From positions 1 to 21,117 of the IMG/VR virus record IMGVR_UViG_3300005882_000028: 21,117 bases of DNA. One strand, written 5' to 3'. The stretch is from a virus. Positions 1 to 12,383 of this stretch are shown piece after piece. The notes under the pieces are model-generated. The model worked only from the letters and a program-made list of their open reading frames with translations. It was not told the DNA's origin and ran no database searches. Positions within the stretch are counted from its first letter, which is position 1, and every line of letters begins with the position of its first letter. Both the position numbers and the translations under genes were made by a program.

Positions 1-1841
1 ACAGAAACGGACTCAGAAACAATGTCCTGAGTGATCTCAGTGGTTTCCGACTGAGTTTTGTTCAGATCCACTGCTTTGGCATCTGCCTGAACCTTCCGCA
101 TCTGAGGAGAGTTCACCAATTTACGAGCCTGTGCCTGCACATTTTCAGGGAGAGTTTCGATCATCCCTTTCAGACGTGTGATCTGAGAAGCAGCATAGGT
201 TTTCTGAGCATCCGTCGGTTTGAAGGATTTCTGGGAAAACTGTTGTGCAACACGAACAACGTTCTGAAGGAACGGACCAGATTCCACACCTTCAGGAGCT
301 GGAGCAGTATCCCGCTGAGTGACAACCTCTTGCAATTCAGGAGTCACATTGCCTTCATTGATGGCATTGGAAACCTCAACCATGGTATCACGAGCAGCCT
401 GAACACCAGCAGCTTGGCCTTCAGTATCAGGACGTTGAGCACGTTCCTGAACAGCATCCACAACCGGTTGAGCAACAGTTTGTGCCAGATCCCCAGCAGC
501 ACGAGCAATTTCAGGGGCAGCCTGAGCTGCATCACTGACAATACTGGCACCTTCAGAGACTGCACCCAGTGCAGCAGCAGGAGAAGCAGAAACACCAGCT
601 TGACCGATACCACCAATGGCACCTTCAACAGCTTGTTGTCCTACACCCTGAGCCAGAGTACGACCATCCAGTTCTTGCAGAAGTTCGTTTTGGTTCAGTT
701 GGCTTGTCGATCCTTGGAGAGATTCTTCCAAACCTTCACCAACAATGGTGCGAAGACCACCAACAACCCCACGTTCAGCAAATGCCCCAACAGGAGCAGC
801 GTTGAAACGAGACGAGATGAAACCAATGGCCATAGCCGTAGGCAGTTGACGAACGAAGGCAGTTTCACCGGTCAAACCAGCAAACTGAATACGAGCTTCT
901 TGCTCGGTCATACCTTCAGCAATCATGGCTTGGAATACTTCAGAGTTCTGGAGGTTTTCCAATGGCATATCCAGAACAGCATTCACGGTCTCAGAGTAGG
1001 TTCCACCTGCTTCAGCAGCACCTGCACCAATGGCAGAGCCGGTAGCCGTAGCCACACGACGTGCCAGTTCAGCACGGGTAAGGAGACTTGCACCACCACC
1101 CACGAGGCCAGCTCCTGTGGCAGCAAGAGCAGCAGATGGAATCAAGGAACCAACGCCCTGAGAAACGATTTCGCCAGAAACACCCGGATCCAACAAAGCA
1201 CGTTCACCAGTTGCCAAAATATCCCGGCCAATCTGACGAGCATCAGCCAAGAGAGGGGAAACCCCTGCTTCGATTTGACGAGCATGTTCAGCAGCAGAAT
1301 CTTGTGCATCGAGATGGGCTTCAGTGCCGATGAGACGTTCACGATCACGGATGGCCTCAGAACGTTGATCCCGAATGAACTGAGTAAAGTCATTCGAGAA
1401 GTCAGCCATTTCTACGGCACCCTCACGAAAAGTGCCACCATCACGCATAGAAGCAAGACCGGAAATAACGGCACCAGAAGTATTAGCAACTCCACTGACA
1501 AAACCTGAAGTCGCACTGTGCAGAGCATCAGATAGCATCTCACCAGTTGTACGATCTCGGTCACGTACACGTTGGTTATCAGCAACTTGGTTTCGCAGTC
1601 GAATCTGATTGTCCGCAACTTCCGGACCATAATTGACGAGAAGTTCTTCATAGGACATCCCTGCAAGATCTGCCCCAACACCGGGGGTTTCGGTGAGGTC
1701 GTTTTCACGTTCAATGGAAACAGCGAGAGCTTCACGAGAAGCAGGATCTGTCAGGAGCGTATTCGCCCCCGCAGAAGCATCATTGTTGAACAGTTGAAAG
1801 GCTTCATCAATGATGGAAGTAGCAGGGGAGCGATCAGCCAT
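1..1841 (-). CDS. Giant virion RNA polymerase (N4 gp50-like), N-terminal 613 residues, cut by window edge
   Basis: An open frame begins at ATG 1841 and runs off the left edge without a stop. It is preceded by AGGA with a 9-base spacer. The protein is rich in Ala, Gly and Gln, with a hydrophobic stretch near residues 224-256 and a Gly/Ala-rich stretch near 400-425. Short motifs match, in the same order, my memory of the N-terminal domain of phage N4 gp50: EAGGTY near 277, a GMTEQEAR block after it, SRFNAAP near 342, EESLQGSTSQLNQN near 372-385, and a following GVG...EGA segment. In N4 this about 3500-residue protein is packaged and ejected, and transcribes early genes from single-stranded hairpin promoters. 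The catalytic domain would lie beyond the window, so polymerase activity is inferred from homology and from its place as the last gene of the block. Another giant ejected protein is the alternative. Confidence 0.82.
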   Translation of the reverse strand, partial: MADRSPATSIIDEAFQLFNNDASAGANTLLTDPASREALAVSIERENDLTETPGVGADLAGMSYEELLVNYGPEVADNQIRLRNQVADNQRVRDRDRTTGEMLSDALHSATSGFVSGVANTSGAVISGLASMRDGGTFREGAVEMADFSNDFTQFIRDQRSEAIRDRERLIGTEAHLDAQDSAAEHARQIEAGVSPLLADARQIGRDILATGERALLDPGVSGEIVSQGVGSLIPSAALAATGAGLVGGGASLLTRAELARRVATATGSAIGAGAAEAGGTYSETVNAVLDMPLENLQNSEVFQAMIAEGMTEQEARIQFAGLTGETAFVRQLPTAMAIGFISSRFNAAPVGAFAERGVVGGLRTIVGEGLEESLQGSTSQLNQNELLQELDGRTLAQGVGQQAVEGAIGGIGQAGVSASPAAALGAVSEGASIVSDAAQAAPEIARAAGDLAQTVAQPVVDAVQERAQRPDTEGQAAGVQAARDTMVEVSNAINEGNVTPELQEVVTQRDTAPAPEGVESGPFLQNVVRVAQQFSQKSFKPTDAQKTYAASQITRLKGMIETLPENVQAQARKLVNSPQMRKVQADAKAVDLNKTQSETTEITQDIVSESVS

Positions 1842-1849
1842 GGGGAGAT

Positions 1850-1879
1850 ATCCTAGCAGATTATGTTTTCTGCTAGGAT
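1850..1879 (-). promoter_or_regulatory. Perfect 11-bp hairpin covering the Shine-Dalgarno of the giant vRNAP gene
   Basis: Arms 1850-1860 and 1869-1879 are exact inverted complements around an 8-base loop (1861-1868). On the minus-strand transcript the second arm contains AGGA (1854-1851), the only good Shine-Dalgarno for the ATG at 1841. No U-run follows, so it does not look like a simple terminator. It most likely limits ribosome access or marks a processing site between the SleB-protein gene and the polymerase gene. It is unlike N4 vRNAP promoters as known (5-7 bp stem, 3-base loop). Regulatory function is inferred. Confidence 0.6.
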
Positions 1880-1910
1880 CTTTGTCATAAAAATTTTCAG
1901 AGGTCCAGTA

Positions 1911-3866
1911 TTACTGCGACGGAGTTCCGAAGAGTTCTGCGTTTTGCGAACGGATCGAAGACAATTGCAGCATGAGCTGTGCGATCTGTTGACCAATTTC
2001 CGTCCGATCCCCACCTTTGGCAGCCTGTTGCTGCAAACGAGTGATCTGAGAATTGATACTGGCAACCTGTTGGTTGATTGCTTGAGCACGTTCACGATTG
2101 GCACGGAAACCACTGACACGCTCATTGCTGAGAGATTCTTCAATGATCTGACCAACGTCAGCCATCGGGAACCGGTTTTCAACAGTATTCCGGGTAAGGT
2201 CAGAGTCATACCAGAAGCTCGACTCTTCATCATCACCGGGGTCACGAATGTAGATTTCACGCATGGCAGCAGCAGCCACCTCACGAGTAACCCCATATTC
2301 ATCAGCAATCCGGTTGATATGACGGTTCACCTGTTCCGGCTGGAAATAATCCGGGGTCTGTTCGTCTGTGGCAATGCCCAGTTGTTCGATCAGAGTTCCA
2401 GCAGGATCATTCGCAAAGGTCGGAATGGAGTCAACCAAACGAGCCTGAGAGTTGTCAGAGGCCAGAGCAGCTTCCAAATCGGCACTGATTTGTTGAGAGA
2501 TACCAGTCACCCGTGCATCTGCTTCCACTTCCGGAGCCAAGAGACCCGGATTGGCTTCAGCGATACCTGTGGCAGCCCGAAGGTTTCCAAGGTTCTCAGT
2601 TGCCGTAAACCGATCATCAACCAGCATGTCACGACCCAGATCCACACCAGACAGGTTATTTGGATCCAGCAGAGCATCAATCTGTGCTTGTGCTCGACGT
2701 TCAGCCAAGATCTCAGCATCCCGTGCTTCCACTTCAGCGTCACGAGTTTCACCAGCACCAGTGATGTCAGCCATCATACGGTTGATTTCAGGACCAGTGT
2801 ACAAACCAGTCTCAATCAGAGCTTGACGATAGGCTTGGACAGGAGAAGCACGTTCAGTCGAGAACGATGCAGGATCTGAACCAGCAATAGGACCAGTGTT
2901 CCCTTGAATTGCTCCTTCACCATCAGCACGACCAAAGAAGTGATCTCCATCAATTTGACGGAAAGAACTATTCGACCAGCTTGGAACACCAGAAACACCG
3001 GGGATGTTGGCGTAATAGTGAGTCGCACCACCAGTACGGTCTTGGTATTGACCAGACAGAATGGCATCAGCAGCCCGGAGAGCTTCTTCATTGGGGGTGA
3101 AGTTCATGTTCTGGCCTTGCTCACCACCAGCATAGCCAGTCACAGAGTTCCATGCCGAGAATTGACCCGGACGCATGATAACCCCTTGAACACCATCACC
3201 ATAATTGCCTGTGGCAGCACGGTTACGAATAACCGAACCCACATCCAACATACCCTGATAACCTTGGTTCCCGGCTTCAGCTTGCAGAGTACGAGCAAGC
3301 ATCAGACGAGTATTTCCAAGATCAGCAGTTTCTGTGATCGGACCAACAGTTGTTCCGTGGTTCCGGGCAAACTCTTGAGCCGAAGAAAACTCACCGGCCA
3401 ATGCACGAGCTGCATCACGACGGTTGTTGCCGTCCATCCAGTCAGCAGCGGTACGAGCTTCACGAGCAGATTGAATCCCAGTCATAACATTGACCCGGTT
3501 GGTATTTGCACCGATCAAACCAGTCTGAGCATCAGTCTGTCGATTGGCAGCACGACCACCTTCAATATCAACCAGACCACCACGAAGACCCAGAATATGT
3601 TGACGCATGTTGTCAGACAGGTTTCGACCAGCCAGACCCCCACCATCAATGAAAGCATCAAAGGCAGCTTCATCCTGAAGACCGGCAATCTCTGCCAGAA
3701 TGGCATCATCTGCTTTGGCTTGCTGTGCAGCACCATAGCGTTCGAGAATACCGGCTCCAGTTTCGAAGCCGTTGTTGAAAGATTGGTTGGCCCGTGCCAC
3801 GGCAGCCGCCGCTGCACTGAGATCCGGGGCGGAAATTTGATTCCAGACAAGACGACGGTCGGCCAT
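1911..3866 (-). CDS. Internal virion protein with SleB-type cell-wall hydrolase domain (651 aa)
   Basis: ATG 3866 follows AAGGAA with a 6-base spacer; that Shine-Dalgarno overlaps the stop codon of the gene before it. Residues about 183-312 read as a SleB/Hydrolase_2 domain: AEAGNQGYQGM with the presumed catalytic Glu197, then VIRNRA, a PGQFSAW block, GGATHYY, and a terminal DGDHFFG with His309. SleB-family enzymes cleave peptidoglycan glycan strands. The N-terminal 170 residues are Ala-rich and helical. The C-terminal 330 residues are Gln/Glu-rich and end in a probable coiled coil (about 600-645). The position equals N4 gp51, an ejected virion protein, so the likely role is local peptidoglycan digestion while DNA and the polymerase enter the cell. 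It is not part of the lysis cassette, which has its own amidase. Confidence 0.78.
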   Translation of the reverse strand: MADRRLVWNQISAPDLSAAAAAVARANQSFNNGFETGAGILERYGAAQQAKADDAILAEIAGLQDEAAFDAFIDGGGLAGRNLSDNMRQHILGLRGGLVDIEGGRAANRQTDAQTGLIGANTNRVNVMTGIQSAREARTAADWMDGNNRRDAARALAGEFSSAQEFARNHGTTVGPITETADLGNTRLMLARTLQAEAGNQGYQGMLDVGSVIRNRAATGNYGDGVQGVIMRPGQFSAWNSVTGYAGGEQGQNMNFTPNEEALRAADAILSGQYQDRTGGATHYYANIPGVSGVPSWSNSSFRQIDGDHFFGRADGEGAIQGNTGPIAGSDPASFSTERASPVQAYRQALIETGLYTGPEINRMMADITGAGETRDAEVEARDAEILAERRAQAQIDALLDPNNLSGVDLGRDMLVDDRFTATENLGNLRAATGIAEANPGLLAPEVEADARVTGISQQISADLEAALASDNSQARLVDSIPTFANDPAGTLIEQLGIATDEQTPDYFQPEQVNRHINRIADEYGVTREVAAAAMREIYIRDPGDDEESSFWYDSDLTRNTVENRFPMADVGQIIEESLSNERVSGFRANRERAQAINQQVASINSQITRLQQQAAKGGDRTEIGQQIAQLMLQLSSIRSQNAELFGTPSQ

Positions 3867-12356: not shown

Positions 12357-12383
12357 AGGCACCCCGAACCATTCAGGGTGCCT
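12357..12383 (-). other. 12-bp intercistronic hairpin with 3-base loop after the portal gene
   Basis: Arms 12357-12368 and 12372-12383 pair over 12 positions (one G-U on the minus strand) around loop 12369-12371. It starts 7 bases after the portal stop. On the minus-strand transcript no U-run follows. On the plus strand TTAGTTT follows, so it could stop antisense transcription from the left. A processing or mRNA-stability site between portal and downstream genes is the likelier role. Confidence 0.6.

Follow-up and report, generated by a model that had tools for sequence, protein, structure and literature searches.

In an N4-like phage fragment and its Rhodovirinae relatives, the ribosome binding site of the virion RNA polymerase (vRNAP) gene is buried in an RNA hairpin, usually just downstream of a promoter-like element from which transcription would begin inside the 5' arm of the stem. 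We consider it probable that the two form a gate, with vRNAP silent on read-through RNA and translated from its own transcript; both the promoter function and the silencing are read from the arrangement of the sequence. N4 virions carry 4 ± 1 vRNAP copies each, and the papers searched offered no explanation for how N4-like phages hold vRNAP to a few copies per particle despite the adjoining upstream structural genes. Nor did they describe a promoter-in-hairpin gate for N4-like phages, although such a gate is known in T4.

The window, the whole 21,117-nt stretch analyzed here, represents 21 kb of an N4-like phage (a virus record, with PHROG hits for the major head, the tape measure and the virion RNA polymerase). 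Among isolated phages, Sulfitobacter phage phiCB2047-B and Roseobacter phage RD-1410W1-01 (Rhodovirinae, Schitoviridae) stand closest to it, and a DNA search found no close DNA relatives among phages. The structural genes lie on the minus strand, with the gp51-like gene ending at 1911 and the vRNAP ATG at 1841, which leaves a gap of 69 nt. The window vRNAP is 46% identical to that of phiCB2047-B. It had been described as the last and largest gene; its position as the last agrees with synteny, and the window truncates it after 613 codons. In phiCB2047-B (L006), two overlapping annotated genes make up the gp51-like gene (998-2928), apparently through a frameshift or a split made in annotation. 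The features of the window junction are as follows.

3-1841, minus strand: N-terminal 613 codons of vRNAP (N4 gp50 homolog; PHROG 2206, E=1.7e-76), running off the window.
1850-1879, minus strand: SD-sequestering stem-loop, with the 5' arm at 1879-1869, an 8-nt loop at 1868-1861 and the 3' arm at 1860-1850; 11/11 positions complementary.
1851-1854, minus strand: Shine-Dalgarno (SD) AGGA of vRNAP, within the 3' arm and 9 nt ahead of the ATG at 1841.
1871-1873, minus strand: predicted transcription start within the 5' arm, placed by its distance from the -10-like hexamer.
1879-1889, minus strand: extended -10-like TATGA (1889-1885) and -10-like CAAAGA (1884-1879), with a 17-nt spacer to the -35 box.
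1902-1907, minus strand: -35-like box TGGACC (TTGAnn in most relatives), at a fixed distance from TRTG; T and G are invariant and A is present in 14/15 distinct sequences.
1911-3866, minus strand: gp51-like ejection protein with a cell-wall-hydrolase-like domain, upstream of vRNAP; its stop lies 31 nt ahead of the stem.

The original prediction of a perfect 11-bp stem with the only good SD in its 3' arm proved accurate, as all 11 positions pair and the window gap holds no better SD upstream of the AGGA. In the window, no other perfect non-overlapping inverted repeat within 60 nt is as long. Folding here was predicted throughout for naked RNA at 37 °C, warmer than the marine hosts grow. The 151-nt junction folded with z=-3.0, none of 200 shuffles being equally stable, and opening the SD and start cost 16.1 kcal/mol; with a shuffled upstream half the cost was 8.5 ± 1.8 kcal/mol (1/200 as high). 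Rfam covariance models gave no match for the hairpin. It does not fit the early promoter of the N4 vRNAP, a DNA hairpin with a short stem (4-5 nt) and a 3-nt loop ahead of early genes (PMC3715699), given its 11-bp stem, its 8-nt loop and its position at a late gene. Elsewhere, closedness in the window peaks at 12372 (16.0 kcal/mol), the start of a gene between the gp57-like and portal genes. In five relatives the equivalent start ranks in the top three, and most relatives instead carry a long hairpin just upstream of it.

A vRNAP scan of viral contigs with the window protein alone returned nothing; relatives were recovered by searching with aligned gp51, gp53 and RNAP-domain sequences. When the junction was aligned across them, the stem was kept in the clade and showed compensatory changes. 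An SD-sequestering stem is present in the gp51/vRNAP gap of all named Rhodovirinae examined and of nearly all contig relatives, and in DSS3phi2, EE36, R7L, DS-1410Ws-06, RPP1 and AX (where the SD is weak) it covers the start codon as well. Among annotated late-region starts, that of vRNAP took first place for closedness in 7/9 genomes; in the remaining two, one of them the window, it came second. The strength of this statistic is uneven: of the isolates compared, V13 and the window had the lowest opening costs. In member L117 the SD is visibly within a stem, yet the opening cost did not exceed that of shuffles (12/60).

RNAalifold gave no single consensus structure over all members because the register of the stem differs among them, and covariation was consequently counted inside two subgroups, the window's and that of DSS3phi2. 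These counts, like all the statistics here that draw on related sequences, are not independent: in the window's subgroup both sides had changed at 4/11 stem pairs and 96% of cells paired, compared with 23-48% in slid controls, while in the DSS3phi2 subgroup 98% of cells paired and there was one double change (1/14 pairs), which is weak alone, as 128/500 shuffles reached it. Members L021, L026 and L122 have stems different from those of other members; since different members carry different stems, it is concealment of the SD, not any particular sequence, that has been conserved. Taken across these sequences, the hairpin is real, with chance excluded by conservation and compensatory changes. That it would be a terminator or a chance structure is thus hardly credible: a simple scan calls it terminator-like on the plus strand, but no member has a terminator-type U tract after the coding-strand stem, and a coding-strand terminator was rejected for this reason.

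All tested stem-bearing rows fell into one group of 19 in the gp53 tree, with support of 100/100. Sixteen of these have both stem and element, L122 and L117 have the stem only, and L103 has neither (L117 and L103 were entered in the tree as unclear, and their folds were determined separately). A further contig outside the tree, L157, whose gp53 is 36% identical to the query, has both. The stem likely had a single origin, as judged from the rows in the tree, in which L157 is not placed. Two of the phage contigs, L157 and L156, came from MAG bins assigned to a Flavobacteriaceae and a Zixiibacteriota bacterium; because related isolates infect roseobacters, these placements are probably binning errors.

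Other subfamilies handle this gap differently. The vRNAP starts of N4, LUZ7, Pokken, Axy12 and ort11 are ordinary, with no SD stem. An intrinsic terminator was found in the gp51/vRNAP gap of Pokken, Axy12, ort11, RHphY38, L127 and L131 by scan, and of N4 and L128 by inspection of the sequence; the identical scan found no intrinsic terminator or coding-strand U tract in any of 18 stem-bearing members. This suggests that the terminators meet the same need in another way. A translational brake on vRNAP, as first proposed for the window, is well supported by the stem and its compensatory changes within the clade and by the terminator often seen in that gap elsewhere.

What the original prediction missed is the promoter-like element, whose predicted start in the 5' arm would provide a different route of release. 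This element, [C]T[TG]GA-N14-TRTG[AC]VA with constant spacing, lies just 5' of the stem (window 1908-1883, minus strand). When 15 distinct sequences were aligned on the invariant TRTG[AC]VA, a C-T-[TGA]-G-A block stood at an identical distance in each, with near-random letters between and a spacer of 17 nt in 15/15. TRTGA[ACG]A was absent from the -60 to -30 region of all 192 other gene starts. The strict whole pattern gave 11 hits per 626,558 strand positions, 9 of them in the vRNAP gap (one per genome searched), a count that is circular in that the pattern was derived from the very sequences searched. A leave-one-out matrix, which partly removes this circularity, ranked the vRNAP gap first in 9/10 genomes and second in the window; the score used for AX is that of the gap, which spans the ends of its record. 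Out of sample, at loci obtained once the element was already recognized and absent from the matrix, the L156 gap ranked 1 of 27,344 and the L157 gap 2 of 27,238, and in both the SD was predicted to be closed in read-through RNA and open in RNA from the predicted start.

The layout matches that of an extended -10 sigma70-type promoter in its TRTGn (T, T and G invariant, R at position 2), its TTGA/TGGA box and its 17-nt spacer. A TATAAT-like -10 with a final T was not found; the hexamer reads VANWNN, with an invariant A at position 2 and no conserved T at either end. We therefore describe the element as promoter-like and resembling the extended -10 sigma70 type, rather than as a confirmed member of that class. 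A weak sigma70-type promoter is plausible here because in N4 the late genes are transcribed by host sigma70 RNAP together with the phage SSB. The element occurs once per late region, where a general late promoter might recur.

Other candidate promoters were also seen. One with its -10 in the hairpin loop (ATGACA-N17-CATAAT) was rejected, as it is not conserved. A second conserved promoter-like stretch, TTGCTT-N16-TTAAGT at window 9258-9231 on the minus strand (in relatives TTGCCA...TTTAGGCTGTGTTAAGC), lies 3' of a terminator-like hairpin (9297-9270) and between the major capsid and gp55-like genes in nearly all of ten Rhodovirinae. A strongly conserved block, GGCATTTGCTTTCCAGTCTTGGTTTAGGTTATAGG in consensus, stands ahead of the first late gene in eight genomes and may be the main late promoter; in the window it lies upstream of the gp69-like gene (19356 upward, minus strand).

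Placement of the element relative to the stem is what leads us to the gate. Read-through RNA from the structural operon holds the whole stem, so that the SD, and in several relatives the AUG, would be buried and vRNAP hardly translated. From a dedicated promoter overlapping the stem (a TTGA-like -35, a 17-nt spacer ending in TRTGn and a weak -10), RNA would start in the 5' arm, 6-8 nt past the hexamer, that is at TRTG +16 to +18 or window 1873-1871. This shorter RNA would lack the SD-pairing part of the stem and be translated normally. Calculated opening costs agree with this scheme in 17/17 members, at 4-10 kcal/mol for RNA from the predicted start and 12-30 kcal/mol for read-through RNA, with late-gene medians of 7-9 kcal/mol. 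For the window the calculated cost is 9.8-7.6 kcal/mol instead of 16.1, which equals the genome median of 7.5 or exceeds it a little. A weak promoter of its own would then control vRNAP output and shield it from the strong expression of the structural genes, with low copy number as the presumed purpose. Counting against the gate are the poor -10-like hexamer, the single occurrence of the element per late region and the residual opening cost in the window; in addition, L117 and L122 keep the stem without the element, and L103 lacks both.

The same calculations bear on a simpler, and in our judgment unlikely, account in which the stem is a constitutive brake that trims vRNAP to a few copies per virion and TRTG/TTGA is not a promoter but some other feature, such as a binding site or a conserved signal of unrelated function. 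The strength and conservation of the stem and the low copy number in N4 virions would suit a brake of this kind, but an opening cost of 12-30 kcal/mol would nearly abolish initiation, not trim it. The fixed spacing of the element, and a placement that lets RNA escape the stem in 17/17, would also go unexplained.

Release of the stem by upstream ribosomes had been suggested as well. In members with the element, the stem begins 18-36 nt past the gp51 stop (the range in 17 members), and because of this distance a ribosome terminating on gp51 should not open it; for the window, where the distance is 31 nt, this part of the suggestion is not favored. Three members without the element (L117, L122 and L103) have gaps of 41-48 nt compared with 56-74 nt, and only 8-15 nt separate the gp51 stop from the stem. 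Such a distance could allow ribosome coupling in L117 and L122, two cases that do not make a rule. Coupling might instead run through a mini-cistron, the RTG at the foot of the stem serving as an initiation codon for ribosomes coming off gp51, whose passage would melt the 5' arm and expose the SD. An ATG or GTG does stand 15-26 nt past the gp51 stop in all element-bearing members, and the three that lack the RTG are those with shorter gaps and a nearby stem. We nevertheless regard this mechanism as decidedly unlikely, since the RTG has no preceding SD and leader length varies erratically between 2 and 50 codons, with some leaders ending short of the stem and others having no stop near the vRNAP start. 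The fixed-distance TTGA block is unexplained by it, and as the sole account of TRTG a mini-cistron start codon was rejected on these same grounds.

A trans-acting factor might also open the stem, whether a protein under autogenous control like T4 gp43 or gp32, or through an RNase processing site. SD stems are typical operators and vRNAP itself binds DNA hairpins, but the stem varies widely in sequence, length and loop, with no loop or stem motif common to the clade, and we consider this very improbable.

The promoter-in-hairpin gate might extend more widely. Tentatively, and with rather more doubt than confidence, we suggest that gating by transcript origin replaced the terminator throughout the subfamily and that the promoter-less members switched to ribosome-coupled opening. 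The gate itself would provide a specific mechanism, in cultured phages, for low vRNAP copy number, as an alternative to a terminator in the gap. It also supplies a promoter candidate for a phage group without a previously recognized promoter: the authors of the RPP1 genome found no promoter consensus in their phages (PMC4193335), and the element, if it is a promoter, would be the first such consensus for roseophage N4-like viruses.

Hairpins that hide ribosome binding sites are known from other phages. As cited in PMC3014915, an RNA stem likewise hides the ribosome site of the homing endonuclease gene mobE of phage Aeh1, which is unrelated to the vRNAP leader in sequence and gene. The terminator of N4 and other Schitoviridae occupies the same gap ahead of the same gene and would also stop structural-operon transcription from driving vRNAP; it differs in acting on transcription, leaving the SD open with no stem over it. 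The closest parallel is in T4, where genes e, soc, 49 and I-TevI have hairpin-sequestered ribosome sites and a late promoter within the 5' arm has been shown for e and I-TevI (PMC3014915). Long transcripts of gene e, with the structure, yield 100-fold less lysozyme than structure-free ones, and transcripts from the promoter lack the 5' part (PMC3014915). As in these T4 genes, the SD and/or AUG of vRNAP is computed to be paired in a helix on long read-through RNA, an arrangement kept in relatives, and as in gene e the promoter-like element is placed so that its own transcript would lose the 5' arm. The vRNAP case differs in belonging to an unrelated phage family and polymerase system, with another type of promoter and another gene, and in being known from sequence alone. 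In T4 the arrangement separates early from late expression; for vRNAP, both transcripts would belong to the late phase, and the arrangement would insulate the gene from a stronger operon.
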